DNA of 25,087 nucleotides from a virus. How positions within the stretch are numbered: the stretch's first letter is position 1; every line of letters starts with the position of its first letter. Where the stretch lies: the IMG/VR virus record IMGVR_UViG_3300014325_000039, positions 1 to 25,087 of that record. One strand, written 5' to 3'. Under the pieces are notes generated by a model, which was not told the origin of the DNA, did no database searches, and saw only the letters and a program-made list of their open reading frames with translations. The position numbers were made by a program, and so were the translations under genes. Shown here piece by piece: positions 3,404 to 24,908 of the stretch.

Positions 3404-3406
3404 CCC

Positions 3407-3418
3407 TTAAAAGTTACC
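3407..3418 (-). promoter_or_regulatory. GTAACT-type motif before the GNAT gene
   Basis: GGTAACTTTTAA ends 3 nt before the ATG at 3403. It is one of three near-identical sites before genes whose start does not overlap the upstream stop. No purine-rich Shine-Dalgarno is present. It could aid ribosome binding or be a promoter -10-like element. Confidence 0.3.
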
Positions 3419-3424
3419 TGTTTC

Positions 3425-4252
3425 TTACTGCTTGTAGAGCGTCCATAGCGCCAACTGGGGCGGCACGGTAATCGAGCTAGGAGCGCCCGCCAGAGTCACC
3501 GTTTCCCCGGATGTCACCAGAGAAGTCTGGGGACTTACCCCCGGAGAGGTCGGAAAGTTACTGGCCGGATTAGTTCCGGGGTCCGTAGTCGCGCCAACGA
3601 GCACGCGCCCGCGCCACGACTGGTTTGTATCGCCAAGAAATCCCCATCCGGGATTCTGGGTCAGAGCGTCCTGCAAAAGTTCTGTGACTACCTGCTTCAC
3701 GTCTCCCTTGACGCCGTCCACGGTGCGCCAAGCGGACCGTTCCCACCAGATGAGAGTCTGGATGTCAGTGTCATAAAACTGCTGCAAATTTTCCGGAGAC
3801 GTTGGGCGCTGCGCCGTAGTTCCAGAACGAACAATAGGACTGATTCCTTCCCATGCGAGAGTGACCGAGTTCCATTGAAACCATCCGATGGCCGCGCCGT
3901 GAGACGGGTCAACATCCGTCGCATCTCTCTCAGTCTTCAACCAGACTTCCGGGTCGTGGGACACCGGCTGAGAATTTCCAATCCAAAAAGGAATGGTGAA
4001 CGAATCCGAAATATCAACCGGAACGTATCGCTTGGTTGCTTCATCCCAAACATACCAGCGGGTCCCGCCCTTGAGCCACGGTCCCACATTTGACGTTGGT
4101 TCGATGTCGCCGATGAAAATGAAGTTCGCGCCTCCGGGCGAAAGGATTTTGAACCGGCGGACCATTTCAGCCGCCAATTCGTTTGGCCCTCCCCGAAAAG
4201 TTATCGGGAGGGGCGACATCTGAATCAGGAGGTTAGTATTTTGCAGACTCAT
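3425..4252 (-). CDS. Tail fibre/collar-type protein
   Basis: A 275-aa protein. Residues 144-180 carry the motif GTTAQRPTSPENLQQFYDTD followed by TLIWWERSAWRTVDG, common in phage tail fibres. Residues 202-222 (GWGFLGDTNQSWRGRVLVGA) and the last 15 (ITVPPQLALWTLYKQ) match the start and end pattern of tail-collar domains (a GW...D, a GR-V-LVG strand and a final PP-hydrophobic-Lys). It is probably a short tail fibre or a fibre adaptor on the nozzle made just before it. The start is ATG 4252, overlapping the 51-aa gene as ATGA. Receptor unknown. Confidence 0.65.
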   Translation of the reverse strand: MSLQNTNLLIQMSPLPITFRGGPNELAAEMVRRFKILSPGGANFIFIGDIEPTSNVGPWLKGGTRWYVWDEATKRYVPVDISDSFTIPFWIGNSQPVSHDPEVWLKTERDATDVDPSHGAAIGWFQWNSVTLAWEGISPIVRSGTTAQRPTSPENLQQFYDTDIQTLIWWERSAWRTVDGVKGDVKQVVTELLQDALTQNPGWGFLGDTNQSWRGRVLVGATTDPGTNPASNFPTSPGVSPQTSLVTSGETVTLAGAPSSITVPPQLALWTLYKQ

Positions 4253-7801: not shown

Positions 7802-8990
<1,189 letters not shown>

Positions 8991-8994
<4 letters not shown>

Positions 8995-10097
8995 GCGATT
9001 TGGACCCAGTTCAAATTAGTCGCCGAGGCTTTCACCTTCACAAGAGGCGCACTGTCTTGGTTCACATAGAGCCGGATAGTCCGGGGACTCACGGTGAAGA
9101 AAAATGTCTGGAGCAACCGAGGTTCATACGGAGTCGCCTGAAATGTAGTATCCAGAACTTCTTGAATCTTCACTTCAACGTGCTGGCCCGCCCTGACCGC
9201 CGCGTTAGCTTCTGCTTCTGTATTGTAAGTCGAAAGCGTTACGCTGGTCGCGTTGTCAATCACAGCCCAAGTAATGAGCGCGAGAAAAATCACGGCGGAA
9301 GTTCCGACAACTGTTTTCGTGGTTCCCACAATGTAGTAGGTTCCGGCAACAGTAATCGGTATGTCAACGAACGCGCCGTCGAACAATACTGGAACTGGAT
9401 TATTGTTGACTATGGTCGTGACAAAATCTGTTTTGCCTGCACCGAAGAAGTATCCGTTGATATTGGCGTTAGCGTCACGGCCTTTGTCGCCTTCGTCTCC
9501 GGGGTCGCCGTCAGGACCTTTGTCGCCGGGAGCCCCCTTGTCGCCGACGATTGGACGCCCGCCGGGAGATACCGGAACAATCACGGCACCCAGAGGAACG
9601 ACAACCGGCGCAAACGAGAGCGCCTCACGAAGCGTCAGGACTACCGTGTCCCCGTCGTTTTCAACAACATCATACCAGCCTGAGTTTTGAACAAACACAA
9701 TCAGTCCGGGCAAAAGTGCGCGAGTTGCCAAAACTGAAATCGTGATTGTGTCCCCAACATTCGGCTGGACAAAATCAGCGGTCGTAGCGGAGACCGCATT
9801 TTTACCGTTCACTCCGTCCGGACCTTTTTCACCTTCGTCGCCGGTCAACTCCAAGATGTTATCGTAGAGAAGCCGGAAGAAATAACACGCGACGCCCTCG
9901 CCGAATCCCCGAGGGTCGGCAGGAAGTCCAGTCTCCAGACCGCATCCGAGAGTCCAGATAACTTTTCCGTCAACGTCTGTCTTTGTGACGACGCCAAACA
10001 TTTGCGAAGTGAAATTCGCAACCTTGCTAGGAAGCGATTCACATGCGGCGGAATTATGTCCGCTTGTCGCCGTAGGGTTTAGGCAATCTGCGTCCAT
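8991..10097 (-). CDS. Collagen-containing tail fibre, paralogue of the preceding fibre
   Basis: A 368-aa fibre; its ATG overlaps the previous stop by 19 nt. The N-terminal module (SAACESLPSKVANFTSQMFG...VDGKVIW), the collagen tract at about 85-101, the beta module IVFVQNSGWYDVV, the second collagen tract at about 179-207 (GDKGAPGDKGPDGDPGDEGD) and the C-terminal head with AGTYYIVGTTKT and IRLYVNQ all align in order with the upstream fibre. The propeller is absent. The head resembles C1q/TNF-like domains in pattern. It is likely a trimeric receptor-binding or accessory fibre. The gene ends as ATGA with the next small gene. Confidence 0.78.
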
Positions 10098-12406
10098 GTG
10101 ATGTCAGTGTAGAGATACGGGATGGTTTGCGTTCCCGAAGGGACAGTATTCAAAGTTCCATCCGACAAGAGGCGAGCGATTCTCCCTCTTGGAATCGTTT
10201 GAACAGAAATGAAAGTTCCACTCACCAAAATTTTTCCGTCTGTCTGGACCCATGCAGAATACACAATGTCACCGGCAACGCCGATGTTCACGTCTCCGAG
10301 AGAGGTATCCAGAGCGCCGGTGCCCGGAATGATTCGGGACAAGTGAGTCTGGTTCGTGGTCGCCGGACCGAATTTCGTAAAAAGACCGCCGACTATAATG
10401 TTACCCGTCGAGTCGAGAGAAACAGTGTGAACGTCGTTATTGAAACCCGCCGAGGCAGTGGCAACCGCACCGGCAGAAGTCAATTGAATGAACTTCGGGG
10501 ATGAGGTCCCGTTGTAAGTGGAGAATGAGCCGCCCACCAGAATTTGTCCGGTAGTCGGAACATCAACCGTCTGTTCCTCGATGGAATACACTGTTGAGTT
10601 GAACTGGGACGCGGTAGTCGATGCCCACGTCGCATCCGGGAGTCCCGTGGTATTATCAAACCGAGCGATTCGACTCGTATGCGCGACGTTTGACGGTCCC
10701 GTAGTTTGTGCAGAAGTGAACGCGCCGCCAACCATCACGAGCCCACTGGCCAGAACTTTAATGGCGCGGCCTGTGTCATTCAGTCCGCTAGTGCTGGTTC
10801 CGAAAGTAGTGTCCAAGAATCCGGTAGTGCCGGGACCGCCAGACGTTTGTATCCGAGCGATTCTCCGACGAGTAGTTCCGCCGACAGTCGTGAATGCGCC
10901 GGTGATGACGGCCATGTTATTCGCATCGATGTCCAACGCAAAAATCGTATCGTTGATTACCGCGTGAGAAGTCACCATGTCCGCGTGCAAAGTCCCGTCC
11001 GAATTTAGGATAGCAAACTTGCTAACGGTGTGGACTCCAGCCGTGTCACGATAGGACGAGAAAGTTCCGCCGATGACGATATGCCCGTCAGCCATCAAAC
11101 CAACTGAGTAAACGGTAGCGCCGGAATTTACTCCGGGGACGGCGGGGCCTACAACACCCGCGTTGAATGATGCGTCAATCGTTCCGTCAACATTGAGTCG
11201 AGCAACCCCGTTGATAGAAGTCGAATTCATTGTGGTGAACACCCCGGCCACAATAATTTTTCCGTCACTCTGGACGGCGATGTCGTAAATGATGTTGTTC
11301 GCGCCCGCGAGCCCGCCATCCATGAAGCCGAGAATCCGGCTTGCATAAAGCTGAATCGTGTCCGCGCCGCCAGCCGTGTAGATGGCCGCGAAAGGGCAGT
11401 GACGAAACTCGTTGGCCGCGCTTGGCGCAATAAGTTGAGTCGTGCCCGGAACATCAAAATTATTTGTCACGCTGAACAACTTGATTTGCGTGTTCGACTG
11501 GACGTTAGCCGCAGTCTTTCCGACAATCAAATATGTTCCGGCGTTCGGCAGAGTGAATCGCGGGTCGGCGGCAGTCGGAGTCACTGGCGGATACCCCGGA
11601 GACGCAACCGAGAACCACACCGGATGAAAGTCTTCGTCCGTGAACGCGAGCAAATTGTAATCGAATCCAGTTGTAGTGAAAAAGAATCCGTTGTTCTGGG
11701 TGACAGATACCGCGTCATTTCCCGGCTGACCTTTAGGACCTTGGATTCCTTGGTCTCCAATCAAACCCTTGTCACCTTTCTCGCCCTTGGTTCCAACTCC
11801 GGTTTGACCCGCCGGGACCACGAGAGCGCCAACAGGAATAATCGCCGCAGCGTCAGACAATCGAGAAATCAAATTGCAGAACAGAACGCCGGTGCCGTCC
11901 GTGCCGACGACGTTATACCATCCGGAATCTTCGATGAAGATATTCGCGCCGGTGACAATGTTGGCGTTTAAGCGTGTAACAATCTGAACGTATGGATGTT
12001 CGAGACTGGGAGTTGCGAACGGAGCCAGCACGACAGTATAGGCGTCCACTCCGTTCGTTCCCGAATCTCCAGTAACACCCTTTGGCCCTTGTTCCCCGAT
12101 TATACCGTCTTCAAAAAGACGCAAGATGTAGCAGCCGAGGGGTTCGTCCGCGCCGCGAGGATTGGCCGGAAGACCTTGGTCGAGTTGACACGGCAGAGAC
12201 CAGACAACTTTTCCATCAACCTCAGTCTTGACGACTTCTCCGAAAAACTGGAGGGTGAAATTGTCTATCTGCGAAGGCAAAGTCTCGCACGCGGCGGAAT
12301 TGTTCGGGCCGGTATGCCCGCACGGATTGTCGAATCCAAGCTTGTCGCAAGAATTCAACGGGTTCGGATTATCGTGCCCGTCATCGCCGCATTTTGAGCA
12401 ACTCAT
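10079..12406 (-). CDS. Collagen-containing tail fibre with delta-60 propeller
   Basis: A 775-aa fibre. Residues 35-90 form a conserved N-terminal module (SAACETLPSQIDNFTLQFFG...VDGKVVW) shared with the next gene, probably the virion anchor. Short Gly-X-Y tracts follow at about 104-120 and 202-231 (KGEKGDKGLIGDQG), suggesting trimeric triple helices, with a beta module IFIEDSGWYNVV between them. Residues 245-360 look like a C1q/TNF-like head (AGTYLIVGKT, IQLYAS). From about 371 to 756 there are seven copies of a delta-60 type repeat (VQSDGKIIVAG.F..., ARLNVDGTIDASFN), expected to form a seven-bladed beta-propeller. The C-terminus TDITWTQIA matches that of the next fibre. The role is probably host-surface recognition. 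Confidence 0.8.
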   Translation of the reverse strand: MSCSKCGDDGHDNPNPLNSCDKLGFDNPCGHTGPNNSAACETLPSQIDNFTLQFFGEVVKTEVDGKVVWSLPCQLDQGLPANPRGADEPLGCYILRLFEDGIIGEQGPKGVTGDSGTNGVDAYTVVLAPFATPSLEHPYVQIVTRLNANIVTGANIFIEDSGWYNVVGTDGTGVLFCNLISRLSDAAAIIPVGALVVPAGQTGVGTKGEKGDKGLIGDQGIQGPKGQPGNDAVSVTQNNGFFFTTTGFDYNLLAFTDEDFHPVWFSVASPGYPPVTPTAADPRFTLPNAGTYLIVGKTAANVQSNTQIKLFSVTNNFDVPGTTQLIAPSAANEFRHCPFAAIYTAGGADTIQLYASRILGFMDGGLAGANNIIYDIAVQSDGKIIVAGVFTTMNSTSINGVARLNVDGTIDASFNAGVVGPAVPGVNSGATVYSVGLMADGHIVIGGTFSSYRDTAGVHTVSKFAILNSDGTLHADMVTSHAVINDTIFALDIDANNMAVITGAFTTVGGTTRRRIARIQTSGGPGTTGFLDTTFGTSTSGLNDTGRAIKVLASGLVMVGGAFTSAQTTGPSNVAHTSRIARFDNTTGLPDATWASTTASQFNSTVYSIEEQTVDVPTTGQILVGGSFSTYNGTSSPKFIQLTSAGAVATASAGFNNDVHTVSLDSTGNIIVGGLFTKFGPATTNQTHLSRIIPGTGALDTSLGDVNIGVAGDIVYSAWVQTDGKILVSGTFISVQTIPRGRIARLLSDGTLNTVPSGTQTIPYLYTDITWTQIA
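10130..11296 (-). repeat. Seven delta-60-type repeats in the fibre gene
   Basis: This tract encodes seven divergent units of about 50-60 residues with the pattern [VI]-x-D-G-x-I-[IV]-[VI]-[GA]-G-x-F followed by R-[IV]-A-R-[LI] and a DGT-type turn. Examples are QSDGKIIVAGVFT, STGNIIVGGLFT and QTDGKILVSGTF. Such repeats are known in secreted bacterial proteins and fold into propellers. The boundaries are approximate. Confidence 0.75.
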
Positions 12407-13382: not shown

Positions 13383-13419
13383 TTGGAAAAGAGGGGCGAG
13401 ACTTATTCAGTCCCGCCCC
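13381..13419 (-). terminator. Rho-independent terminator after the capsid gene
   Basis: Read on the minus strand, GGGGCGGGACT, loop GAATA and AGTCTCGCCCC form an 11-bp stem with one G-U pair and a 5-nt loop, followed by TCTTTTCC. The stem lies at 13393-13419, 54 nt after the capsid stop. The tail runs directly into the next start codon. T7 has a terminator in the same place after its capsid gene. The tail is only moderately T-rich, so partial read-through into the lysis genes is likely. Confidence 0.82.
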
Positions 13420-13473: not shown

Positions 13474-14790
13474 TTACAGCGTGGGGACGCCGGGGCCGAC
13501 TACCGGGGTCTCATCGTCGCCACAGACGCCGATGGACGTGAAGGAGTCAGCGCCAGAGTAGCTGGACGCGTCAGTCGTCGCGCAGTTGACCAAGCCGAGG
13601 TCAGCGATGCAGCGTTTATACAGAATGGGTATAATGTGCTGCGGGCGCAGAGGCCGGTAAGCGCGGGTGATTTGGTATTTGTGCCAACCGAAGTCACCCC
13701 ACTGATTGCACTGATTGTCAATCTGGTAGTGCCATTCGAGTTCGCCCATGTGAAGCTGAGGCGCGAATTTGAACGAGCCTTCGCCGACATACTTTTCAGG
13801 CACGAGCCTTTCAAAGCTGCCGTCAGCGATGAGCACGCCAACCTCATAGGCCGCATTCAACCAAGCCGGATTCGGCTTCGCGAACGCAGTGTTCGAGGCG
13901 GGTTTGCTGACCACAACCACGGGGTCAACGAGCGCCAAAGTGCCGTCCACGTTGAAGCCGGTCGCCCGCAGAGGCCGCTGGTCAACGCCGAAAGCGATGC
14001 CACGGTAAGCCGGGGACTGTTCAAACGAGTAGGCCGTCAGGGTCGTCTCGCCGAGTTTGTAACCGCCAGTCGTCAAAGCAACCATGACGTTCTGGACGCC
14101 AACCTCAGAGCGGAAGTATTCCACTTGGTCGGAGCCGCCGATGAAACGGAAGTGAGGCATTCCCTGCCCGGAGTCATACCATTCAGCGAACAGCACTTCG
14201 CGCAGATACCGAGCGATGAAGTGCAGCGCCTTGAAGGTCATAGGACCCGTAGGCAGGAGCGGAGCGAACTTGACGCCGAGGTCGGTCTCCAATCCGCCGG
14301 TGAACAGCGAGTTGAAGTCGTAGTTGGCATTCGCGGTGAACTTCGATGCACTCCGCAGATACAACTGAGCGCGGATGTCCGCGTTGATGTATTGGGTGAC
14401 GAGTTTCTTGAGCGAATCCTCAGCCATGACATACGAGCCCTTGAAGGCCGCGTAACCTTTCTTCACGCAGATGTTCGGACCCCGGCCACGAAACGATTCG
14501 AGGCGCAGAGTAAACTCCACAGTGTCGGTGAGGTCTTGCGAACCATTCTGGCCGCAGATGTCGGTGTCGCAAACGAAAGTTGGAATCGCCAGCGAGTCGC
14601 CGGGAGCAGCCTGCATTTGCACGATTGAGCGAATCGCATCGGACGTGCCGGAAGGAAACACCCCGCCCCCGATGACGTTCATGTAAACGGCATTGGCAGC
14701 GAGAGCCTTGGCGATGGTCCCTACGATTCGGTTTGTGTCCTTCGAGGCGATGTCAGAAATCGCAGAAGGGTCGTCGCAGAAAAAAGCCAT
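13474..14790 (-). CDS. Putative major capsid protein
   Basis: A 438-aa protein with no signal peptide or membrane span, starting MAFFCDDPSAISDIAS. The size and place (after portal and scaffold, before tail genes) match a major capsid protein. It is set off from neighbours by a leader and a terminator, as expected for the most abundant virion protein. The frame is so poor in codons giving reverse stops that a 330-codon antisense frame is open across it, consistent with strong codon bias of a highly expressed gene. Cysteines cluster near residues 73-79 (FVCDTDICG) and the C-terminus is Ser/Gly/Pro-rich. No capsid family motif was recognised, so an HK97-type fold is inferred. Confidence 0.75.
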   Translation of the reverse strand: MAFFCDDPSAISDIASKDTNRIVGTIAKALAANAVYMNVIGGGVFPSGTSDAIRSIVQMQAAPGDSLAIPTFVCDTDICGQNGSQDLTDTVEFTLRLESFRGRGPNICVKKGYAAFKGSYVMAEDSLKKLVTQYINADIRAQLYLRSASKFTANANYDFNSLFTGGLETDLGVKFAPLLPTGPMTFKALHFIARYLREVLFAEWYDSGQGMPHFRFIGGSDQVEYFRSEVGVQNVMVALTTGGYKLGETTLTAYSFEQSPAYRGIAFGVDQRPLRATGFNVDGTLALVDPVVVVSKPASNTAFAKPNPAWLNAAYEVGVLIADGSFERLVPEKYVGEGSFKFAPQLHMGELEWHYQIDNQCNQWGDFGWHKYQITRAYRPLRPQHIIPILYKRCIADLGLVNCATTDASSYSGADSFTSIGVCGDDETPVVGPGVPTL

Positions 14791-14977
14791 AAATTTAGCC
14801 TATCTGTTGGGGAGACTTTGTTACCGCGTCTCTTATTTTGCGGTTCCGGGAAAATCGTCCTACCCGGAGGGACTTTCTTCTCGCTGCGGCCAAACAGCAA
14901 ATAGGCTTTTCTCCGGTGGAGCCGCGTCGAAGGTTTTTTAAGGCTCCAAAAAGTAGTTACCGAAATCCGTCAACCTG
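14791..14977 (-). promoter_or_regulatory. 187-nt leader before the capsid gene
   Basis: This is the longest gene-free stretch between the genes here. It holds three short inverted repeats: TCCGGG/CCCGGA at 14845-14850 and 14863-14868, CTCC/GGAG at 14911-14914 and 14918-14921, and GGAGCC/GGCTCC at 14918-14923 and 14942-14947; the last two share bases and could be alternative pairings. A TTGACG at 14973-14968 resembles a -35 box, but no matching -10 was found at normal spacing. It probably carries a capsid-gene promoter, a structured mRNA leader, or both. The exact element was not identified. Confidence 0.4.
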
Positions 14978-15739
14978 TCAAGGGTGCCCGGAGACGTATT
15001 CGGTGCGAGCGCGACAGAGGTCGTCAAACACGCTTCGGTCTTTGATGGAATGGATGAATCGGATTCCTTTGTTGCGGACCAAGTCGAGCATCTGTCCGTA
15101 TCCCAAGTGCCGAGCGCCGGGAGTCGATGAACCGACAGGGCATTCGGAGGTCGGGCATGAAGCACCATCCAAGAACCGCATCATGGGAACATCAGTGTAG
15201 CACGCGAGCGCCATCATATACCAATCGATATACGGTGTCTGCACCCACCCCGGTTCATTCCCATATTGACCAAAAAGTTTTGTATCCCGAATGTCGAACT
15301 GTCCCTTGGAGAGAAGCCGTTCCAAAACCTGCCGAGAAAAAACATACGGCGGCTGGAGCGCGAATCTCGGAAGCGGATAAGTCGAGGCCCGGACATGGAT
15401 GTCGTCTGGAACTTTGTTTGACCAGATAACATCGGGACGTGATTTGATGTAGTCCGGAAGTCCCGGAGACAAAAGACAAGAGTCGGCGTCATTCGCGAGA
15501 TACCAGTCCGCATCGAAATCTAGCAACGCACTCAACTGGAGAAATTGGCGGTCCAAAGAATCGGGGCCGATGTAGCAACGCTTCCCGGCAGTTCGGCACC
15601 ATGCGCCAATCTTGATGACAGGCGAGTCGTCTGGAGAAAGAACAACAACCGGAGCGCCGTGCTGAATATGCGCGGGCCAGAGGTTGCCCATTTGGTTCAT
15701 GTCGCCTTGGTAGCAGTGAACAGATACTAGAAGTTTCAT
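14978..15739 (-). CDS. Glycosyltransferase-like protein (third of cassette)
   Basis: A 253-aa protein. The ATG at 15739 overlaps the upstream stop as ATGA and gives the clean strand MKLLVSVHCYQGD; an earlier in-frame start at 15805 would add 22 residues inside the previous gene and is rejected. A DxD-type motif WYLANDADSCLL (D84, D86) sits at the usual distance after the first strands, and IDWYMMALACY near residue 195 fits the acceptor side. It would transfer a sugar from a nucleotide donor, perhaps the GDP-fucose made by the gene before it; that link is inference. It is the last gene before a 187-nt gap. Confidence 0.68.
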   Translation of the reverse strand: MKLLVSVHCYQGDMNQMGNLWPAHIQHGAPVVVLSPDDSPVIKIGAWCRTAGKRCYIGPDSLDRQFLQLSALLDFDADWYLANDADSCLLSPGLPDYIKSRPDVIWSNKVPDDIHVRASTYPLPRFALQPPYVFSRQVLERLLSKGQFDIRDTKLFGQYGNEPGWVQTPYIDWYMMALACYTDVPMMRFLDGASCPTSECPVGSSTPGARHLGYGQMLDLVRNKGIRFIHSIKDRSVFDDLCRARTEYVSGHP

Positions 15740-16662
15740 TGTCGTGATAAGAAGTCCCTGTAGGCAATCGGAAGACCGTCCGCGAGCAACGTCTTCGGAG
15801 CCCAACCCATTTGCCGAATTTTAGAATTGTCGAGAAAGCGTATGGGGGTGCCGTCCGGCTTTGTCCGGTCCCAATTTATTTTTCCAGTGAAGCCAACCGC
15901 AGCGGCAATTTTGATTGCAAGAATTCCCAACTCACACCATTCGCCTGAGCCGAGATTGATTGGTTCTTCCCCGTTGTATCCGTTCATCAGCCACAAACAC
16001 GCAGCCGCTAAATCGTCAGACCACAGGAATTCACGGACCGGATTTCCAGTGCCCCAGAGTGTCACGTCTTCGCCGCGAAGTTTGGCCCAATGAAGCTTGT
16101 GAATCATCCCCGGAATAACGTGAGACTTGAGCGGGTCATAGTTGTCGTTTAAGCCGTAAAGATTCGTAGGGATGCACGAAATGAAATTGCATCCCTGTTC
16201 ACGTCGATAAGCTTTGCACAACTCGTGCCCCAAGATTTTGCATAAAGCATAACCCTTATTGCTTTCTTCAAGCGGGCCTGTGAGAAGTTCACTTTCAACA
16301 ATCGGGACGGCGGCGCGTTTTGGATACGCACACGCGCTGCCGAGGAACAAAAGTTTTTCGACTCCATACTCCGCCGAAAGAGAAATCACGTTGTTCTGGA
16401 TGGCGCTGTTCTGGAGAATCGCGTCAGTCGAATAGTGAGTGTGCGCCATAATGCCGCCAACCCAAGCGGCACAATGAAACACGTAAGCCGGACGATGAAC
16501 CGAGAAAAAGTATCGAGCGTGCGTATCATCCGCCAAGTCGATTTCAGAGTGCGGGGCGACTACGATGTTCTCGTGTCCGCGACTGCGAAGAAGCCTGTGA
16601 ATGGCAGAGCCAACTAAGCCCCGGTGTCCAGTGATGAAAACTTTCTTTCGGGGGTCAATCAT
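15736..16662 (-). CDS. fcl: GDP-L-fucose synthase-like epimerase/reductase
   Basis: A 308-aa short-chain dehydrogenase-type protein of the GDP-L-fucose synthase family, which turns GDP-4-keto-6-deoxy-D-mannose into GDP-L-fucose with NADPH. Seen in sequence: the nucleotide-binding loop GHRGLVGSA (G12, G15, G18), FLGSACAYPK with S109 and C111, GYALCK with Y138 and K142, and SHVIPGMI with H181. These match the E. coli enzyme residues S107, C109, Y136, K140 and H179 with a constant offset of two, so both the reductase triad and the Cys/His pair for epimerisation are present. WGTGNPVREFL is also family-typical. The family's usual AAxVGGI motif appears as AAWVGGI. No GDP-mannose dehydratase is in the window. 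ATGA overlaps link it to both neighbours. Confidence 0.88.
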   Translation of the reverse strand: MIDPRKKVFITGHRGLVGSAIHRLLRSRGHENIVVAPHSEIDLADDTHARYFFSVHRPAYVFHCAAWVGGIMAHTHYSTDAILQNSAIQNNVISLSAEYGVEKLLFLGSACAYPKRAAVPIVESELLTGPLEESNKGYALCKILGHELCKAYRREQGCNFISCIPTNLYGLNDNYDPLKSHVIPGMIHKLHWAKLRGEDVTLWGTGNPVREFLWSDDLAAACLWLMNGYNGEEPINLGSGEWCELGILAIKIAAAVGFTGKINWDRTKPDGTPIRFLDNSKIRQMGWAPKTLLADGLPIAYRDFLSRQ

Positions 16663-17399
16663 AAGTCAAGTGCTTTTCTTCCGTGCTTGATTAAGCTGCC
16701 GGACTTGTCTCCGTGAATCCAGACCCAGTGCTTGTCCACGAAGCTTTGATAATCCGCCGGGGTGAACAGCGGGGTGTTATATATGCTTTGTATCTCCGGG
16801 ATATTGGCCCATCCATGATTCCTAAACTCGGTCCGCATCGCGTAGTCCCACCCAGTCATGGGGTGAACAGTCGGAACGGTCTTGAGAATCCAGTCAAGAA
16901 CCTCGCGCCTGCAAGAGACCAAACAGTTGCCGTTGATGTGCGTCGCAATCGGCGCGTCCGGCGCATCACTGCCAACCATCGGGCCAGCAATCACGACTGG
17001 AGAAATAGAATTGACTCGGTCCCATGCTGAATGAAGCCGCAAAATCCAATCCTTGCAAAGCGGAGCGCCATCCGCTTCGCAAGTAAACACGCACTTGTAA
17101 TGCGGCGCTTTTCCCGCGTAGCACATGCTTCGCACCCATTCGATTGTTGATGTCCAGAGCCCATTGCAGCCGGACGGCCATCCGGTTTGCCTGCTTCGGG
17201 TGCGATACTGGAACACGTTAAATTTTCGAGCCAACGATTGCCTGACATTGTCTGGAAAATTGGGACAGTCAAATCGGTTCACGAGAAGAATGTCAGCCAA
17301 GTTCGTATGCTGTTTCTCGATGTCTGCAAGATACTGGCCGAGGGCCTTGGCGTGTTCTCGGTCTCCAGACCAGTATTGTAAAGCGATGAGTATTTTCAT
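16659..17399 (-). CDS. Glycosyltransferase-like protein (second of cassette)
   Basis: A 246-aa protein starting MKILIALQYWSGDREHA, a typical N-terminal strand and loop of a nucleotide-sugar binding fold. A metal-binding-type acidic motif TCEADGAPL (E108, D110) follows, and an acceptor-side region HPMTGWDYAMRTEF lies near residue 180. Both ends are coupled to neighbours by ATGA overlaps, so it belongs to one translation unit with the other cassette genes. A cytoplasmic sugar transferase is the likely role. The motif is a variant ExD rather than DxD, so a catalytically different or weak enzyme is possible. Substrate unknown. Confidence 0.62.
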   Translation of the reverse strand: MKILIALQYWSGDREHAKALGQYLADIEKQHTNLADILLVNRFDCPNFPDNVRQSLARKFNVFQYRTRSRQTGWPSGCNGLWTSTIEWVRSMCYAGKAPHYKCVFTCEADGAPLCKDWILRLHSAWDRVNSISPVVIAGPMVGSDAPDAPIATHINGNCLVSCRREVLDWILKTVPTVHPMTGWDYAMRTEFRNHGWANIPEIQSIYNTPLFTPADYQSFVDKHWVWIHGDKSGSLIKHGRKALDL

Positions 17400-18295
17400 T
17401 TGAGTCCGGTATTATGAAGACCGTAAACGCAATGGCCGATATGCCCGCACACGAGACCCATGTCAACGTATGGCTGGTGTCCGGCGGCAGACGCACGAAG
17501 ACAGAAAGAAACATCTTCACCAGAACCGAGCGGATTTTCTGTCCGCGCCTCTGCGAGCGCCGACTCCAATCCTTCAAGGGCCTTGAAAGCTTTTTCGGCA
17601 GTGAGAGCGCCGCCGTCAAGGAGCCGGTCCCGTATTGACTGAATGCGTTCGATAAGACTTGCTTCGGTCGAAGCAAACCATTGACCGCCCTTTTTGTCTC
17701 CGCCTCTTGCGAGCCGAGGAAAGCGTTTCTCGATGTCCTCGAACACCGAGCGGTGAATCAAAAGGCAACCAGTAGCAACCCACCGAGTCGGCTTGATTTG
17801 ATTGTATGGACCCCGGCGAGCCCAAGCACTTTCTTCGGGATTCGCCGCTTCACCATACATGAGATTAGAGCCCGGATACCGTCCGGAGTATAACGCGCCA
17901 ACCAAAGTCTTCTTGTGACTCATCAGCCGGTCAATCGCGTTGAAGTCTGAGAACGGTTGCGGGAAATTGAAACCAGTGGCCATACGAAACCACTTGGCGT
18001 TGCCGAAGGGGACAATCATGTCGTCATCGACAGTCAGCATCCACTCGCACGGAGAATTCAAGAACGCTTCCGCGCACTTGTTACGAGTGTGAGCAACGAA
18101 GGCGTCACCAAACTTTAACAGGTCGCCCGTTCGCCGGTGGTCGCAAAGCTGTCCCACACTGAAAGCCGTAAGCGGATGGACAGACTTTTGCCAAGGTTTG
18201 GCAACGAGAACTTTAGTCCCCAGTGTCTCAACAATTTCTTGCCGAGACACTGGCGGAAGTTCTGCACCTGAACCGAATCGGTCAGGCAGTGGCAC
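17396..18295 (-). CDS. GT-A-like glycosyltransferase (first of cassette)
   Basis: A 299-aa protein starting at GTG 18295, overlapping the scaffold stop by 14 nt; there is no ATG before about residue 86. It has hallmarks of a GT-A fold sugar transferase using a nucleotide-sugar and a divalent metal: MLTVDDDMIVPFG (D90-D92, DxD motif), ATGCLLIHRSVFEDI near residue 174, GSGEDVSFCLRA (E260, D261) and a late GHIGH. Residues about 205-255 form a charged helical insert between the acceptor region and the GED motif. No signal peptide or membrane span is evident, so it should act in the cytoplasm. Its TGA overlaps the next ATG as ATGA. The donor sugar and acceptor cannot be read from the sequence. Confidence 0.75.
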   Translation of the reverse strand: MPLPDRFGSGAELPPVSRQEIVETLGTKVLVAKPWQKSVHPLTAFSVGQLCDHRRTGDLLKFGDAFVAHTRNKCAEAFLNSPCEWMLTVDDDMIVPFGNAKWFRMATGFNFPQPFSDFNAIDRLMSHKKTLVGALYSGRYPGSNLMYGEAANPEESAWARRGPYNQIKPTRWVATGCLLIHRSVFEDIEKRFPRLARGGDKKGGQWFASTEASLIERIQSIRDRLLDGGALTAEKAFKALEGLESALAEARTENPLGSGEDVSFCLRASAAGHQPYVDMGLVCGHIGHCVYGLHNTGLK

Positions 18296-19694
18296 CTGCG
18301 GCCTTTCGTTCTCGTTCCTCCATCACTTGCTTTGCGATGGCGTCGAGAGCGTCGCCTGCCGGAACAGTATGGTCCGGTTTCTTCGCGGGCGGGGGAACTG
18401 CGCCCGGATTCGCGCCGGATTCGTTCAACCGAGACCGGCTACTGTTTTTGATTTTATCAAACTTGGCTTGGAGCGCATCACGTTCTTTCGTGATGGCCGC
18501 AAGCTGTGAATCTACTTTGGCCTTCTCGCGCTGCGTATTGAAAAGCTGCGCCATGCCAGTGATAAGGATTGCACGCATCGCCGGGGAATCATCCGCGAGT
18601 GCGGCGTCCAACTGAGGACGAAGTTCAGTCACAAACTTGTTGTGGTCTTCCACTTCGGCCTTCACTTCGGGAGTCGCATCCTTCGCCAGTTCCTTCTCTT
18701 TGAACCAAGGAAGATTCGGAAGCATCTGGTCAAGCTGCGCCTTCGTCTGGGTGACGTGTCCAGTGACAGACTGATTCAGTTCTGCCTCGCGAGCCTTCGC
18801 ATACTCCGTGAAATTCTGCTTCGCAACTTGAACGGCCTGTTCCTTGTTGTATCGAGCATGGAGAATGTCCGCCACTTTGGATTCGATGACGCGCTGGAGA
18901 GTTGGGTCTCCCATCGACTCGAATACTTTCGAGAGATTGGTTTTATCCGGACCACCAAACTGTTTAATCTTGGCGATGATTTCCGGAGTGACAACCGGAG
19001 ACTTCTGGAGTTGCGCGTAAATGAAATCTCGCGCCGACTCGATGGTCTTGTCAAACTCCTTGAACTTGGGGTCGAAATCGACATCAAGCTTACCGCGCCA
19101 CTCGCGCAACTCAGCCAGTTCTTTTTCTTTCTCCAGTTGTTCGGTCGTAGGATTCGCAGCCGCCTTTTTGATTGCGGCCAGTTCCTCTTTGGTCTTCAAC
19201 AACTCGGATTCAACTTTCGCAACCTCGCGGGCGGCGATGAGTTTCACGGTCGCGAAAGCTTCCGAAGATTTCGGCGCGGCACCTTGAGGCAGAGTAGGCG
19301 CGTCTTTGAACATCGCCTTGGCGCGTTCTTCTTCCGAGGCAGCACCTTTGGACGCAGCTTCGGCGGCGGCTTTTGCAGCGGCTTCCTTCGCGGCCTTTTC
19401 CTCTGGGGTCTCTGCGGCAGCGGCAGCTTTATCAGCGGCCTCTTTTGCAGCGGCTTCCTCAGCGGCTTTAGCTGCGGCTTCGTCTTCTGCGGTCTTGCCT
19501 TCGGCAGCTTTCTTCGCTGCTTCCTCAGCCTGTTTCGCCAATTGGTCTAGCGCATCCCCCGCGTCTGCGGTCGGGTCTGCTGCCGTCGATTGGCCCATGA
19601 TGTCCTGTGCAGCAACTTTCGCCGCAAGGTCTGCATTTACTTTTGCGTTATCCGGAGGTATTACAACCGGGACGACGAGGGGTGTTTCTGCCAT
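18282..19694 (-). CDS. Putative capsid scaffolding protein
   Basis: A 470-aa protein that would fill the prohead during assembly and leave before or during packaging. Residues about 45-130 are almost purely Ala/Glu/Lys (AAEEAAAKEAADKAAAAAE), and residues 150-230 and 390-420 are also helix- and coiled-coil-like, as expected for a scaffold. It lies between the portal pair and the capsid gene. No protease motif is visible. The sequence AGDALDQLAKQ at 45-55 is echoed by AGDALDAIAKQ at 446-456, close to the C-terminus. Its TGA lies 14 nt inside the next gene's start. The role is inferred from composition and order. Confidence 0.75.
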   Translation of the reverse strand: MAETPLVVPVVIPPDNAKVNADLAAKVAAQDIMGQSTAADPTADAGDALDQLAKQAEEAAKKAAEGKTAEDEAAAKAAEEAAAKEAADKAAAAAETPEEKAAKEAAAKAAAEAASKGAASEEERAKAMFKDAPTLPQGAAPKSSEAFATVKLIAAREVAKVESELLKTKEELAAIKKAAANPTTEQLEKEKELAELREWRGKLDVDFDPKFKEFDKTIESARDFIYAQLQKSPVVTPEIIAKIKQFGGPDKTNLSKVFESMGDPTLQRVIESKVADILHARYNKEQAVQVAKQNFTEYAKAREAELNQSVTGHVTQTKAQLDQMLPNLPWFKEKELAKDATPEVKAEVEDHNKFVTELRPQLDAALADDSPAMRAILITGMAQLFNTQREKAKVDSQLAAITKERDALQAKFDKIKNSSRSRLNESGANPGAVPPPAKKPDHTVPAGDALDAIAKQVMEERERKAAGATA

Positions 19695-19698
19695 AAAA

Positions 19699-20040
19699 TT
19701 ATATTGCTAAAGGGTCAGGGTTCTCTGGCCTCTGTTCTAGTTCAAGTTTTTGCCCATCATTCCAATGGGCGTCAGCCTCCAGCGGAGGATACTCAGGTTT
19801 CGACTCCTGAGACGGGGGCGGAGGATGCGCCAGAGAAATTAGTTCACGAACGACGACTTGAAACCCGCGCACTTCACCGGCGCGAATCATAATCTTGTTC
19901 GTGTCTCCGCCGTCCAAAAGGGGCGGAGCAACTTCAACGAGTTTTGGGATAAGACGTTTACCAGTATCGGTGTCCAAAAAAGCTGCTAACTTTTCGGCAT
20001 CGAACTGAGTCCAATCAAGGGAGCCTGCGAGAATTTCCAT
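19699..20040 (-). CDS. Hypothetical protein between portal and scaffold
   Basis: A 113-aa protein whose ATG overlaps the portal stop as TAATG, so it is translationally coupled to the portal; the scaffold ATG follows its stop after 4 nt. The N-terminal 70 residues look like a small folded domain (LDWTQFDAEKLAAFLDTDTG onward). The C-terminal third is proline-rich (HPPPPSQESKPEYPP) and acidic, so it is probably unstructured. Small open frames at this place are common in podovirus head modules, but no family was recognised. A structural or assembly role is inferred from context only. Confidence 0.75.
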   Translation of the reverse strand: MEILAGSLDWTQFDAEKLAAFLDTDTGKRLIPKLVEVAPPLLDGGDTNKIMIRAGEVRGFQVVVRELISLAHPPPPSQESKPEYPPLEADAHWNDGQKLELEQRPENPDPLAI

Positions 20041-22163
20041 TATTGCGGGGGAGGTTGCGCGGCGGGGGCCGCTTCTGGGGGAACAATCTGACCGTCATTG
20101 TGGGCGGCTACCATTTGCTGGTGCTGGTCAGCTTGAGCATCGAGCATTTTCAACTGAGCGATAGTAGGTCCGACTTGGTCGAGAAATTTCTTGACCGGGG
20201 CTAACTCATCAGGCTTGACGCCGTGAGATAGCGCCTGCTGATAGTGTTCATTGATGTGCGCGGCGAAAGCTTCAAGGGACGTGGTAGGATGTTCCCCGGC
20301 CTGAATGTGGGCACCAAGCTGTTCGACAGCGGGCATCAAAATCTGCAAGTGAATCAAGTGATTGTCCCGAGGCGAGACCGGCACCGGCTGGCCCGCAGTC
20401 AGCAACATGATTTCCATTTGCTGCAATCGGTCTTGTTCAGCGTGTTCGGTCGGGTCGTTGTCCGGCAACAAAAGCTTTTCAGCGAAATCGGCGGAGACCT
20501 TGGCAGTCAAGTCTTCAACTTCGAGTTGGCGCTGATTGTAGAGAGGGTTTCCTTTCTTCTCAGCGGCAATTGACGCAATCAACTGGCGTTCATACGGAGT
20601 CAAATCCTTGATGGTCCCAGATACCGGCTGGTGCGCCAGTTCTTGGATTTCCTCTTTGGTCATTTCCAACTCCAATTGCTTCCGCGCTTCGACAGCATCT
20701 TCATCATCGCAATCGGGGTCGCAGATTCTTTCCTGCATTGTCTGGAAAAGATTTGTGGTCTGTTCCATGAACCGAGTGATGCGAACGTCTTGGCCTTCTT
20801 CCTCGCGCTGCGCGAGCAAAGACCAAGCTTGCGGCGAGCGGAAAGCTTCGCCTTCAACTTGCGGCACCGAGGTCGAGCCGATGAGTTGATTTACAATTTG
20901 TCCGAAGTAGGCGTCGAGTTTAATGAACCCTTCGACATTTCCGTCGATTTTCTGTTCGAGAACAGTCCATCCGGACGGCACGATTATGGTTGACCCTACG
21001 ACGGACATCCGAAAAGTGTGAATGCGCTTGATGTCGCCCTGCACAAGAGTTTTGCCTGACATGATAAGACGGTCAACGACTTCGTTGCGCGTCCGGTCAA
21101 TCATGCCTGCGAGTTCATAAATATCGCGTCCAACTCCTTTACTGCCATGAAGCGTCCCGTTCCCTTTTTGGAACGAGAAGAACGATAGACAACTTTCAGT
21201 GGAGTCGAACCTATCGTCTCGATGGAAAATTTCTTTCATCTCGGGACCGGCAACGCGGTAATGCGATACTTTCCCGGAGACTTCGCGAGCCAGAAGTGAA
21301 TACACCACGATGACGGAAGAACCCGCCATGTAACTTGCACCAATCGTAAGTTCTCGCAGCGCGTTTTGATACCACGTTTCCAAAGTGCCTCCCACGTTGA
21401 GACGGTCGCGTATTTGGACAGGTGACGCACGATTGATTGCGTCACGGCAGTTTGCAAGGGACCATCCAGCGTCTTCTGCTGCTTGGGGGTCTTCTTTAAT
21501 TTGGGCAAAAAGTTCATGGGGGAGATAAACCTCTTTGAGCACGACTATCTGAGCCCAACGGACATCGGCCTTGGTTCCGTCAGCAACGAAAGATTCGTCC
21601 TGCTTGAAATGCTTCGGAAACCAACTGTATTCATCCAACCACGCACAGATGGTGTGTCCAAAAAGGGCGTTGTCGAAAGCGATGTCTTCAATGAGCGTGC
21701 GGAATCCTTTCCGGGCACGAATAGTCTTAGTGATAATTTCACGGAAGCGTTCAGACTTTTGGGTAGCGTTCTGGTTCTTGTTCGAGAGCGAGGCGTTAGT
21801 GAAATACTTGAGCCCGTCGATGGCCGCGACAAACCGAGGCGCGACTTTCTCAATCATCGCGGGGAGAGGCTTGGTCGTGAAGTTCGAGCGCCAGCCGAAG
21901 CCTTCGGCCTCCAGCTTGTAGGCGTCGTAGGGCCGTTCGGCGTTATACTTCGCGAGGATGCGCGAGTTGACGATGGAACGATTGCGCCCCGCCATGACGA
22001 CGGTCTTGATGACATCGCGAGCCATCCCCACGTCAGCGATTGACTTCTGGGTCGGCTTCCCGGACTGCAAACCAATCGCGGGCGACTGAATCACCGAGCC
22101 CAGATAGTTCTGGGGATAGCCGGTGTTGTTCAGACTACTATAGGGGCCTCTGTCTTGAGCCAT
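20040..22163 (-). CDS. Portal (head-to-tail connector) protein
   Basis: A 707-aa protein from ATG at 22163, 2 nt after the upstream stop. A TTG at 22169 would add two residues and overlap that stop as TTGA, so it is a possible alternative. The portal forms the ring at the unique capsid vertex that the terminase docks to and DNA passes through. Support is its length, its position between terminase and scaffold, and portal-like content: a mixed alpha/beta core, then a long charged, helical, Gln/Glu-rich C-terminal region from about residue 480 that ends in a Pro/Ala/Gln tail. Asp/Glu-rich DPDCDDEDAVEA lies near residue 490. No short diagnostic motif exists for this family, so the call rests mostly on synteny. 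Confidence 0.82.
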   Translation of the reverse strand: MAQDRGPYSSLNNTGYPQNYLGSVIQSPAIGLQSGKPTQKSIADVGMARDVIKTVVMAGRNRSIVNSRILAKYNAERPYDAYKLEAEGFGWRSNFTTKPLPAMIEKVAPRFVAAIDGLKYFTNASLSNKNQNATQKSERFREIITKTIRARKGFRTLIEDIAFDNALFGHTICAWLDEYSWFPKHFKQDESFVADGTKADVRWAQIVVLKEVYLPHELFAQIKEDPQAAEDAGWSLANCRDAINRASPVQIRDRLNVGGTLETWYQNALRELTIGASYMAGSSVIVVYSLLAREVSGKVSHYRVAGPEMKEIFHRDDRFDSTESCLSFFSFQKGNGTLHGSKGVGRDIYELAGMIDRTRNEVVDRLIMSGKTLVQGDIKRIHTFRMSVVGSTIIVPSGWTVLEQKIDGNVEGFIKLDAYFGQIVNQLIGSTSVPQVEGEAFRSPQAWSLLAQREEEGQDVRITRFMEQTTNLFQTMQERICDPDCDDEDAVEARKQLELEMTKEEIQELAHQPVSGTIKDLTPYERQLIASIAAEKKGNPLYNQRQLEVEDLTAKVSADFAEKLLLPDNDPTEHAEQDRLQQMEIMLLTAGQPVPVSPRDNHLIHLQILMPAVEQLGAHIQAGEHPTTSLEAFAAHINEHYQQALSHGVKPDELAPVKKFLDQVGPTIAQLKMLDAQADQHQQMVAAHNDGQIVPPEAAPAAQPPPQ

Positions 22164-22165
22164 AC

Positions 22166-22411
22166 TCAACTAAGAGTTACGCGTTTGCGCCAGATTCGCA
22201 ACCAGCGTTTGTCCGGGCACTGTTCGGTGGTCAACATCACCTTTGCCTCAGCCAGACAACCACACCGGCGACACTGGCCGTCTTTGAACTGCGGGCAAGG
22301 TTTGCAGATGTCGTATCTCTCTGCTTGTTCGCGAGGATTGCATAGCGTCCGGTATCCCCGGAGCCTCGCCCACTTGAGCAGCACCATCGCTTTGATGAAA
22401 GTGAAAATCAT
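22166..22411 (-). CDS. Small Cys-rich zinc-finger-like protein
   Basis: An 81-aa protein from an ATG at 22411 that overlaps the upstream stop as ATGA. An in-frame start at 22477 exists but would overlap the previous gene by 70 nt, so the coupled ATG is preferred. Cysteines lie at C24, C36-x2-C39, C47-x2-C50, C52 and C65, in the arrangement ICKPCP...CRRCGC...CP. Small phage proteins with this paired CxxC pattern are usually taken as zinc-binding; the function is not known. The first 20 residues are hydrophobic and basic (MIFTFIKAMVLLKW). Both this and the neighbouring 187-aa protein carry an IC-x2-CP...C-x2-C module. Confidence 0.75.
   Translation of the reverse strand: MIFTFIKAMVLLKWARLRGYRTLCNPREQAERYDICKPCPQFKDGQCRRCGCLAEAKVMLTTEQCPDKRWLRIWRKRVTLS
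22171..22180 (-). promoter_or_regulatory. GTAACT-type motif before the portal gene
   Basis: GTAACTCTTA lies 7 nt before the ATG at 22163, inside the 3' end of the 81-aa gene. It is the same pattern as before the GNAT and 114-aa genes. Confidence 0.25.
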
Positions 22412-22971
22412 ATCGTTCGTTTCCTCCAACAATGCCCCGGCAACGCGGGGCTGTCTATCGTTGGGCGTTCGAGCCACACAGCAACACAGTTATCTTCGCC
22501 AGTTTCAGCGCATCCGTGTAATCGCGAGTCTTGTCTTGTTCTCCCGAGGATTTCTTTACGTGCCTCTCCGAGCGCCTGCTTGCAAGAGCCGCATCCTTTT
22601 CCAATCTCAACATTGAGCGGGCATCCTGAACAAATTGTTGCGCGAGCACGGGCGACTTCATCGGGGACACACGGAGATTCATTGTGCGCTTTTGCCAGCG
22701 CGAGCCATTGAAGGACTCGTGACTTGAGCGAAGCGCGTTTCGTCTGTTCCGCACGGACTCCATTGTCGTTCCGGCATAGTCCGGGGTCTCGCGCACAAAC
22801 TTGGTCAATGACTTCTTGTGACGGGTTCCCCGGCGGAAGTCCGGCACGTTTGCGATAGTTAGCAACGCGAGAAATAACACCGGACCAAGTCTGGCCAACA
22901 ATCTTTGTGCCGTCAGATTCTTTGAAGTAGTGTCCGCCTTTAGGATATACATTTGGATTGAGAGTGTTCAA
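22408..22971 (-). CDS. Cys-rich zinc-ribbon-like protein, TTG start
   Basis: A 187-aa protein with a C-terminal cysteine cluster: C114-x2-C117, C127-x2-C130, then C154 and C162, the spacing of a zinc ribbon. The N-terminal 100 residues are basic and hydrophilic. No methionine codon occurs anywhere in the frame, so a non-ATG start is required; TTG at 22971 overlaps the terminase stop as TTGA and is the natural choice. The position between terminase and portal suggests a role in packaging or head assembly, or DNA binding, but this is inference. The CP-type cysteine module resembles that of the next gene. Specific function unknown. Confidence 0.8.
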   Translation of the reverse strand: MNTLNPNVYPKGGHYFKESDGTKIVGQTWSGVISRVANYRKRAGLPPGNPSQEVIDQVCARDPGLCRNDNGVRAEQTKRASLKSRVLQWLALAKAHNESPCVPDEVARARATICSGCPLNVEIGKGCGSCKQALGEARKEILGRTRQDSRLHGCAETGEDNCVAVWLERPTIDSPALPGHCWRKRTI

Positions 22972-24908
22972 AACAGTTCCCCCATTTCTGTTGGCAACTT
23001 CATTGATTCATCGAGGTAGTCGTGCCTGTTACTTTCATCGATGCGAGCGCCGCCCGGATAGCGGGCCTCCATCCAAGAGTCGTCTAATTCTCCCGGAACA
23101 TCCACATTGTCACCGCGCATGGAAAGAATCAAACCGGAGCCTTTCCGTGCGGCGTGAACCAAGAGCGTCAAAGAGTCGGCGTCATTGGGGGAACTGAAAC
23201 CGCGACTCATGTAGTCTCGCTTTGACTCCACCTTGGTCTTACCTCCTGCGGATTTGAAATTGCGCTGCGTTAGCTGCGGCGCAAGCTTTCCCAAATCCAT
23301 TGCTGGCGACAGTAGAAAATATCCAAACTCTCCCCAAGCGCGGAGAGCGAACCACAACTCGGTTGTCATCCGGTCGTATTGTTCCTTGCAAGTTTTGGTG
23401 TCTTCCGACATCAACTTTTGTTCGGATGCTGACTCCGAATAATTCAAATCGTGAATCAACTGGGACCACTCATACTTTATCAAGTCCGCAGTTCCAGCGC
23501 CGTGTCCTGTGCGGTCGCACGCGTAGTAGTCTCCTTTGACTCCAGCTTTTCGATTGAGAGAAATGATGGCCTCTTTCATAACAATTGTGTCACCTTTCGG
23601 TAGAACAAATTGTTGGGTAGCCATCAGGCCCCATCGCGGGACAACTTGACCTGCGCGGTCTTTGAACATCACCGTCCGGCCTCTAGGAAATTCGATGGAC
23701 GGCGGAAACTTGATGCCGGTCGCACGGCCAAATAATCCGAGCGTGTGAACCGCTTCATCGCCGCCGTCAAGAGCCAAGTCAGTAGCAGCAACAGGGGAGG
23801 GGTCTTCATACCAAATATATTCGCCTTTCCATTTTGGAAACATTCCCGAAGGAATCACCGTCGCCTCGATACCCGTGGCCGGATACATTCCGCGCCCCAT
23901 CGTCTGGTATCCCGGCGAGTTTCTTCCGCCCGCGTTCAGGGCAATAGCTTCGAGACCGGACCGAGTCTGGAGACCCGGAAAACGTATGCGCCCTTCAAGG
24001 ACGTTCTCGGAGCGTTCTCCGTCGAGACGCAAAACAGACCAGCCGCGTTTTGACTGCCAGCGGAAATGCTTGTCGGGGTCAACGCCTTCCCAACCGAAGG
24101 TAGGTTCTGCGCGTTTGCCGACTTCGTCGTAGGGGTTTGTGGGATTGTAAGCGCCTCCAATTTTGAAACCTTGAGCGCCTTTTTCTTCGATTTCCGATAG
24201 GACGTTGTCAACGTCTTTCCAGACGCCCTTCGCGATGTTTTCAATTTCATCGAGGAAAATAAACATGCGAGACAGAGGACCAAATACAGGATGCGGAGCG
24301 GGTCTGGGGATACGGTGTCCACCTTGTAGCCTCCCGGCTTTTATGTTGTTACCTTTGGGAATCACCACGCCCTTGATTGCCGAAGTTTGATTTCGGCGAG
24401 TCAAGCCGATAAACAACTCGCCGATTTCTCCGGGCATCGGAATCGATGCTTGGTTGTGGAGATTTACTAAGTGAGAAAAAAGATTTCCTTCCAAGTGGTC
24501 TTCGCTAGGACCGAGCACCCGGATGGTCGTGAACCGAGGGTCTCGAATCCATTCCAAGAAAAAGTAAACACCCGCCGAAAAAGATTTTCCCATCTTCGCT
24601 GCGCCCTCAATCAAAAACATCGAAGACTCATCTACGAGACTCCATACTTGTTTTACTGAGTTGGGTTCGCAAGTGAACTGGTTAGGAGTCCACAACATTT
24701 GCGCCGCTTCCTCGCGCCCGTTGTTCTCCAGCAATTCGTGAAGATACGGAGTGAGAATCGGCCAAGCTTGCGCGGGGTCGTGAGAACGTGCCTTGAATTG
24801 GACTCGGAAGAAGTCCGCAACCCGAGCCGCAGCGTCAAGTGGTTTTTCCGAATGAAGGGATTTCGCAACCTCTGCGGCTAGTTCCTTATGTGGTCCCGCC
24901 GGGAGCAT
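22968..24908 (-). CDS. terL: Terminase large subunit (packaging ATPase and nuclease)
   Basis: A 646-aa protein that would power DNA translocation into the prohead through the portal and cut the DNA. The ATPase half has a Walker A motif GAAKMGKS at about residues 102-109 and a Walker B IFLDE at about 217-221. The C-terminal half has spaced acidic residues typical of the RNase H-like terminase nuclease: TDLALDGGDE (D377, D381, D384), YYACDRTGHG (D465) and SPNDADS (D576, D578). Length fits the family. The ATG overlaps the upstream stop as TAATG, and its own TGA overlaps the next start as TTGA. Its place two genes before the portal agrees. Walker motifs and gene order are seen; the assignment of nuclease aspartates is inferred. 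Confidence 0.93.
   Translation of the reverse strand: MLPAGPHKELAAEVAKSLHSEKPLDAAARVADFFRVQFKARSHDPAQAWPILTPYLHELLENNGREEAAQMLWTPNQFTCEPNSVKQVWSLVDESSMFLIEGAAKMGKSFSAGVYFFLEWIRDPRFTTIRVLGPSEDHLEGNLFSHLVNLHNQASIPMPGEIGELFIGLTRRNQTSAIKGVVIPKGNNIKAGRLQGGHRIPRPAPHPVFGPLSRMFIFLDEIENIAKGVWKDVDNVLSEIEEKGAQGFKIGGAYNPTNPYDEVGKRAEPTFGWEGVDPDKHFRWQSKRGWSVLRLDGERSENVLEGRIRFPGLQTRSGLEAIALNAGGRNSPGYQTMGRGMYPATGIEATVIPSGMFPKWKGEYIWYEDPSPVAATDLALDGGDEAVHTLGLFGRATGIKFPPSIEFPRGRTVMFKDRAGQVVPRWGLMATQQFVLPKGDTIVMKEAIISLNRKAGVKGDYYACDRTGHGAGTADLIKYEWSQLIHDLNYSESASEQKLMSEDTKTCKEQYDRMTTELWFALRAWGEFGYFLLSPAMDLGKLAPQLTQRNFKSAGGKTKVESKRDYMSRGFSSPNDADSLTLLVHAARKGSGLILSMRGDNVDVPGELDDSWMEARYPGGARIDESNRHDYLDESMKLPTEMGELF

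Follow-up and report, generated by a model that had tools for sequence, protein, structure and literature searches.

What are four sugar genes doing between the scaffold and capsid genes of a phage, and what would their products modify? The question is raised by a linear, 25,087-bp IMG/VR virus record (IMGVR_UViG_3300014325_000039; "the window" below means this whole stretch, as analysed), in which every substantial gene lies on the minus strand and the sugar cassette occupies positions 14978-18295. A sequence-only reading had placed these genes between scaffold-like and capsid-like open reading frames (ORFs) and joined them by ATGA; the coordinates bear this out, the three joints being 4-nt ATGA overlaps at 17396-17399, 16659-16662 and 15736-15739. 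Our answer, held with moderate confidence, is that the cassette is the local version of a late virion-glycosylation module, fixed in the head operon, with the major capsid protein as its likeliest target. The genes and elements at its centre are the following:

18282-19694, minus strand: scaffold-like gene, 470 amino acids, named from synteny and an Ala/Lys/Glu-rich sequence; adjoins GT1 upstream
17396-18295, minus strand: GT1, predicted GT-A glycosyltransferase, 299 amino acids, core gene (from its distribution and AlphaFold2 (AF2) fold)
16659-17399, minus strand: GT2, predicted GT-A glycosyltransferase, 246 amino acids, second core gene (likewise from distribution and AF2 fold)
15736-16662, minus strand: FCL, GDP-L-fucose-synthase-like NAD(P)-dependent epimerase/reductase, 308 amino acids (PF01370, NF047922, 7ll6)
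14978-15739, minus strand: GT3, predicted GT-A-type transferase, 253 amino acids, variable, sometimes in two copies (from invariant residues and distribution)
14791-14977, minus strand: leader of the capsid gene, conserved among relatives and predicted to fold into tandem pseudoknots
13474-14790, minus strand: putative major capsid protein gene, 438 amino acids, likely glycan acceptor (from conservation and its position after the scaffold)
13393-13419, minus strand: terminator-like hairpin with an 11-bp stem and a T-rich tail, directly 3' of the capsid gene

The names scaffold and capsid were assigned by synteny and conservation and are putative; neither protein had a match in the family libraries, and the capsid, portal, terminase and scaffold proteins gave nothing significant against NCBIfam. 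The start of GT3 was set at the ATG at 15739 and not at the TTG at 15805, because relatives share the former. Since the terminator-like hairpin lies beyond the end of the capsid gene, and a consensus scan for promoters between GT3 and the capsid gene gave no more sites than chance, the cassette and the capsid gene are likely co-transcribed.

Over 200 loci of an uncultured group of phages, on contigs of up to 75 kb (family genomes measure about 70-75 kb), came up in scans with the capsid protein and GT1, and removal of duplicates left 68 non-redundant intervals with both the scaffold-like and the capsid gene present. GT1 was the first gene after the scaffold in all 68, and GT2 was found in at least 63 (the automatic count was 63; of the five intervals without it, L031 is an artefact of removing overlapping ORFs and does hold a GT2 homologue). 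Both genes were single-copy, GT1 in 23 of 23 large records and GT2 in 23 of 23 near-complete records, two sets that overlap. An FCL-like gene occurred in 37 intervals, GT3 in 31 and a GDP-mannose dehydratase (GMD) gene in 16, each of these three being present in some phages and missing from others. The interval measured 1.0-6.0 kb, and in none of the 68 were the scaffold-like and capsid genes adjacent. The cassette had been taken to interrupt a normally adjacent pair; what we found instead was a fixed order, scaffold-GT1-...-capsid. Insertion of a foreign cassette was rejected, the arrangement being family-wide across these intervals.

The remainder of the interval varies from phage to phage. 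Some relatives carry PF04230 pyruvyltransferase-family, Polysacc_synt_2 or other transferase-like genes in place of FCL and GT3, and part of the relatives' "FCL" genes are only 25-28% identical to that of the window and may encode another nucleotide-sugar enzyme. In several relatives GT1 keeps its place beside the scaffold although FCL, GMD, GT3 or GT2 genes have a location away from that interval, in many cases immediately upstream of the terminase gene (L072, L075, L076, L216) and in G001, G002 and G023 elsewhere. HNH/Endonuclease VII-type genes were seen repeatedly just upstream of the capsid leader, after the sugar genes (L003, L007, L008, L021, L047 and others), GIY-YIG-like and other HNH-like genes also occur in the interval of relatives, and the GMD gene of L050, within this interval, holds an intein-like insertion. 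Given these homing-endonuclease genes and the apparent intein, the sugar-gene interval is recombination-active.

The phages themselves, an uncultured and apparently strictly lytic family, stand apart from those in culture. Neither capsid nor portal found a match in 50,697 isolate phage records, and for this reason there appears to be no earlier description of the lineage, of the GT1/GT2 pair found throughout it or of its frequent GDP-deoxyhexose supply; GT1 matched these records only over a 24%-identical stretch of an unannotated marine virus. The sole genomic match to the capsid protein was one contig of a Peribacteraceae metagenome-assembled genome, and because this may be a mis-binned phage contig we claim no host.

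Sequence searches said little about the transferases: GT2 and GT3 had no usable match in Pfam, NCBIfam or PHROGs, GT1 had none in Pfam or NCBIfam and a single weak one to a PHROG of unknown function, searches of the PDB with GT1, GT2, GT3 and capsid profiles returned nothing credible, and profile-profile comparison linked neither GT1 with GT2 nor GT2 with GT3. Invariant residues were more informative when read from alignments of 21-28 homologues. In GT1, D90, D92, E260, D261 and H285 are invariant in 28 homologues and, with roles assigned by position, D90/D92, E260-D261 and H285 correspond to the DxD, xED and C-terminal His that PMC7185993 describes in GT-A enzymes. GT2 has invariant D110 (EADG), D185 (WD) and H229 with a degenerate DxD, and GT3, with a DxD-like D85/D87, D173 and H231 invariant in 21 homologues, is predicted to be a GT-A-type transferase.

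Structure prediction, which the sequence-only reading had proposed for the transferases, gave GT-A folds for both GT1 and GT2. The AF2 model of GT1 (predicted local distance difference test, pLDDT, 84) was closest to A197 of Sulfolobus turreted icosahedral virus (STIV; 2c0n, Z 17.0, root-mean-square deviation 2.7 over 173 residues), followed by LH3 (Z 16.5), Mimivirus R699 (15.3), COLGALT1 (15.1) and Mnn9 (14.7), and Foldseek returned the same group of neighbours. The model of GT2 (pLDDT 96) aligned with many GT-A enzymes at Z 13-16 (best 15.7; 207-211 residues aligned), mostly protein-glycan transferases such as xylosyltransferase-1, Fringe, core-2 GlcNAc-transferase and chondroitin synthase, and among them was the capsid glycosyltransferase 2p73 of Paramecium bursaria chlorella virus 1 (PBCV-1; Z 13.4). 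The best folds of the pair are thus largely protein or glycoprotein transferases. We place GT1 and GT2 in the GT-A fold class, a common fold being in itself no proof of activity or acceptor.

FCL matched PF01370 (E 3e-53), the GDP-L-fucose synthase family NF047922 of NCBIfam (354 bits, E 7e-106) and solved GDP-L-fucose synthases (7ll6, E 6e-91), and its predicted catalytic Ser, Tyr and Lys align with those of 7ll6 (GSACAYP/GYALCK versus GSSCIYP/AYAIAK). By its sequence it is a GDP-L-fucose-synthase homologue, filed as such and no further because it falls below the NF047922 equivalog cut-off of 500 bits. Its usual partner, GDP-mannose 4,6-dehydratase, is absent from the 25-kb fragment; a strong match to GDP-mannose dehydratase, whether in the cassette or at another place, was present in 17 of 23 large records. 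A relative whose capsid protein is 99% identical to that of the window has this gene elsewhere in its genome (G023, 3076-3990; L269, 3043-3999).

Against close relatives the four sugar genes showed 74-95% identity and a dN/dS (ratio of nonsynonymous to synonymous substitution rates) of about 0.05-0.16; they are therefore real coding genes under purifying selection. The capsid protein, the most conserved gene product, was 98-100% identical in the nearest relatives (dN/dS 0.008-0.05) and 68-92% family-wide, and portal and terminase were 94-97% identical against close relatives. The sugar genes are constrained yet change faster than the shell, a pattern that would fit surface-modifying enzymes, among other possible causes.

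From these observations we infer the following pathway. GT1 and GT2, soluble cytoplasmic GT-A enzymes co-translated with the scaffold and capsid protein, would attach the initial sugars to a virion protein as the particle is assembled, the likeliest acceptor being the major capsid protein from the next gene. FCL, working with a dehydratase from another locus of the phage or from the host, would convert GDP-mannose to a GDP-deoxyhexose such as GDP-L-fucose, and GT3 would extend or cap the glycan with that sugar. Other phages of the family would swap the genes for sugar synthesis and capping, and would therefore probably carry different glycans on nearly the same capsid.

Why a virion protein? 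The sequence-only reading had preferred virion-protein glycosylation to modification of DNA or of the host surface, and the gene content of the relatives supports it: among 23 near-complete genomes none encoded a phage integrase (PF00589; 14 of 14 control genomes were positive), a thymidylate-synthase-family enzyme (PF00303) or the initiating sugar-phosphate transferase Bac_transf (PF02397), and control genomes responded to the latter two as well. These absences weigh against lysogenic conversion, hydroxymethyl-type DNA modification and lipid-linked polysaccharide initiation, and virion proteins therefore remain as the target. Among these the capsid is favoured because the position of the cassette beside its gene is constant; it is our best guess at the acceptor and not a result. 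The other virion genes, which include the alternative acceptors, are arranged as follows:

22968-24908, minus strand: terminase-like gene, named from PHROG matches of relatives
between the terminase-like and portal-like genes, minus strand: two small ORFs, placed by gene order
20040-22169, minus strand: portal-like gene
between the portal-like and scaffold-like genes, minus strand: ORF of 113 amino acids
downstream of the capsid gene, minus strand: small membrane or lipoprotein-like ORFs, then the fibre genes
10079-12406, minus strand: fibre gene with collagen-like segments, alternative acceptor
8991-10097, minus strand: fibre gene with collagen-like segments, alternative acceptor
7802-8827, minus strand: collagen-like, Gly-X-Thr-rich fibre gene, alternative acceptor
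after the three fibre genes, minus strand: further structural ORFs

Several points weigh against the capsid as acceptor. The capsid gene is itself assigned by synteny, the glycan is predicted from gene content, and a gene neighbourhood does not by itself identify an acceptor. FCL and GMD genes can lie away from the capsid gene, collagen-like fibres occur in every relative examined, and GT1 resembles collagen glycosyltransferases; the fibre may therefore be the acceptor. The LH3 and R699 matches, at 10-17% identity, could reflect the common GT-A core only. One relative, moreover, has a further sugar locus away from that of the capsid: in L272 (3806-5630; G009) the gene directly after that for a Gly-X-Thr collagen-like fibre encodes a group-1 glycosyltransferase (PF00534, E 6e-19).

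The universal fibres and the collagen-transferase-like fold of GT1 make the fibre a serious rival. The module would in that case glycosylate collagen-like tail or head fibres, on Gly-X-Thr or Lys-containing repeats, and stiffen them or tune adhesion, by analogy with Bacillus BclA and with animal and mimivirus collagens. Three such fibre genes lie downstream in the same array (7802-12406), and LH3, COLGALT1 and R699 all rank among the closest folds of GT1. Yet the fixed place of the cassette adjoins the capsid gene and not the fibre genes, the top VIA match of GT1 is STIV A197, a candidate capsid transferase, and several relatives have only short collagen-like runs. The main LH3 alignment, moreover, covers residues 293-536, which we take to be an accessory and not the catalytic domain. 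On balance we regard fibre glycosylation as a real but minority possibility, well behind the capsid.

Late change of the host surface polysaccharide, by which the phage would block re-adsorption of its progeny or superinfection, appears unlikely. GDP-fucose enzymes, the PF04230 pyruvyltransferase and Polysacc_synt_2 of relatives are typical of polysaccharide clusters; against this, the near-complete genomes lack integrase and the initiating transferase (flippase and polymerase genes were not searched for), the four cassette proteins are soluble, hydropathy giving no membrane segment in any of them, and expression in the head operon is late. That the cassette is a host-derived passenger at a permissive scaffold-capsid site, with no fixed virion role, is highly improbable: FCL, GT3 and GMD genes do vary and the interval does hold homing-endonuclease genes and an intein-like insertion, but GT1 is present in every interval and always in first place, GT2 is present in nearly every one, both are single-copy, and purifying selection on the sugar genes is strong. 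Sugar hypermodification of DNA, known as an activity of some phage glycosyltransferases, is just as improbable, the base-modifying thymidylate-synthase-family enzyme being absent from the near-complete genomes and the cassette lying in the head module and not with replication genes.

The leader of the capsid gene (14791-14977, minus strand) is conserved at the same place in about 80 non-redundant relatives and apparently holds two H-type pseudoknots in tandem. A tandem score of at least 15 was reached under a strict grammar by 59% of leaders, against 1.4% of dinucleotide shuffles; that of the window needs a 3-bp stem to pass. When the leaders were aligned by sequence only, the second pseudoknot was paired in 94% and 83% of cells, well above slid controls and with numerous double changes, and the first was misaligned. 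The leader had no match in Rfam; its predicted pseudoknots might exert translational control of capsid synthesis. Elsewhere, a GNAT-type acetyltransferase gene lies amid the virion genes (2927-3403, minus strand; phrog_1249, E 1e-14) and recurs in relatives, possibly as a further modifier of virion proteins, and two relatives carry giant ORFs of 2.6-2.7 thousand amino acids downstream of the virion genes (L269, 4871-13114, minus strand; L270, 4247-12130) with ADP-ribosyltransferase domains of polyvalent-protein type (PF18760), one of them also with a methyltransferase-like stretch.

How does this module compare with known systems? The sequence-only reading knew of no described phage system with this layout, which does not hold in general, since in cluster O (Corndog-type) mycobacteriophages an O-methyltransferase and three transferases lie between the portal and protease/capsid genes (PMC4351075). 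As in the window, these phages (compared through the FoulBall and Idergollasper records) carry transferases in the head operon near the capsid gene, with 4-bp overlaps; unlike it, their interval has an O-methyltransferase and no GDP-fucose genes, and in Maravista (F1) the transferases lie near the genome end. Two papers that cite Freeman et al. 2023 (PMC12363180, PMC11600133) report glycosylated capsid and tail-tube proteins for Corndog (cluster O) and Che8 (cluster F). The common layout looks convergent, because neither transferases nor capsid of cluster O gave a significant BLASTP, HMMER or hhalign match to those of the window.

Other likenesses are those of enzyme class. In the Turriviridae (STIV A197/B345), A197 is a virus-encoded GT-A enzyme proposed to act on the capsid protein; it is essential, and the STIV capsid protein, which is glycosylated, has in it a candidate transferase (PMC10551542). 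STIV differs in being an archaeal, membrane-containing, double-jelly-roll virus with a single transferase, and A197 and GT1 share 16% identity. The chlorovirus PBCV-1 likewise encodes its capsid glycan machinery, including the GT-A transferase matched by GT2, but infects eukaryotic algae, and 2p73 is one of very many common GT-A fold matches. Collagen glycosyltransferases (LH3, COLGALT1, R699) are among the best GT1 folds and the window has collagen-like fibres, but identity is 10-16% and no lysyl hydroxylase was seen in the window. The gtr serotype-conversion cassettes of temperate phages also consist of phage glycosyltransferase genes, whereas here the enzymes are soluble, the genomes lytic and without integrase, and the position that of the head operon.

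To our knowledge, phage virion glycosylation has been experimentally established in only a few mycobacteriophages. That a lineage unrelated to them keeps two transferases without exception, with GT1 always beside the scaffold in the head operon, and often encodes its own nucleotide-sugar supply suggests more than one origin of glycosylated capsids, and that these are commoner in environmental phages than known; scaffold-GT1-GT2-capsid offers a clear genetic unit for testing capsid glycosylation. A bolder proposal, which we advance tentatively and consider possible rather than probable, is that head assembly throughout the lytic family requires glycosylation of the capsid, GT1 and GT2 building an invariant protein-linked core while exchange of FCL, GMD, GT3 and pyruvyltransferase genes switches the outer sugar on a capsid that itself hardly changes. 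If true, scaffold, GT1 and capsid would form one morphogenesis unit, and the exchange of outer sugars would be a phage counterpart of bacterial serotype switching.

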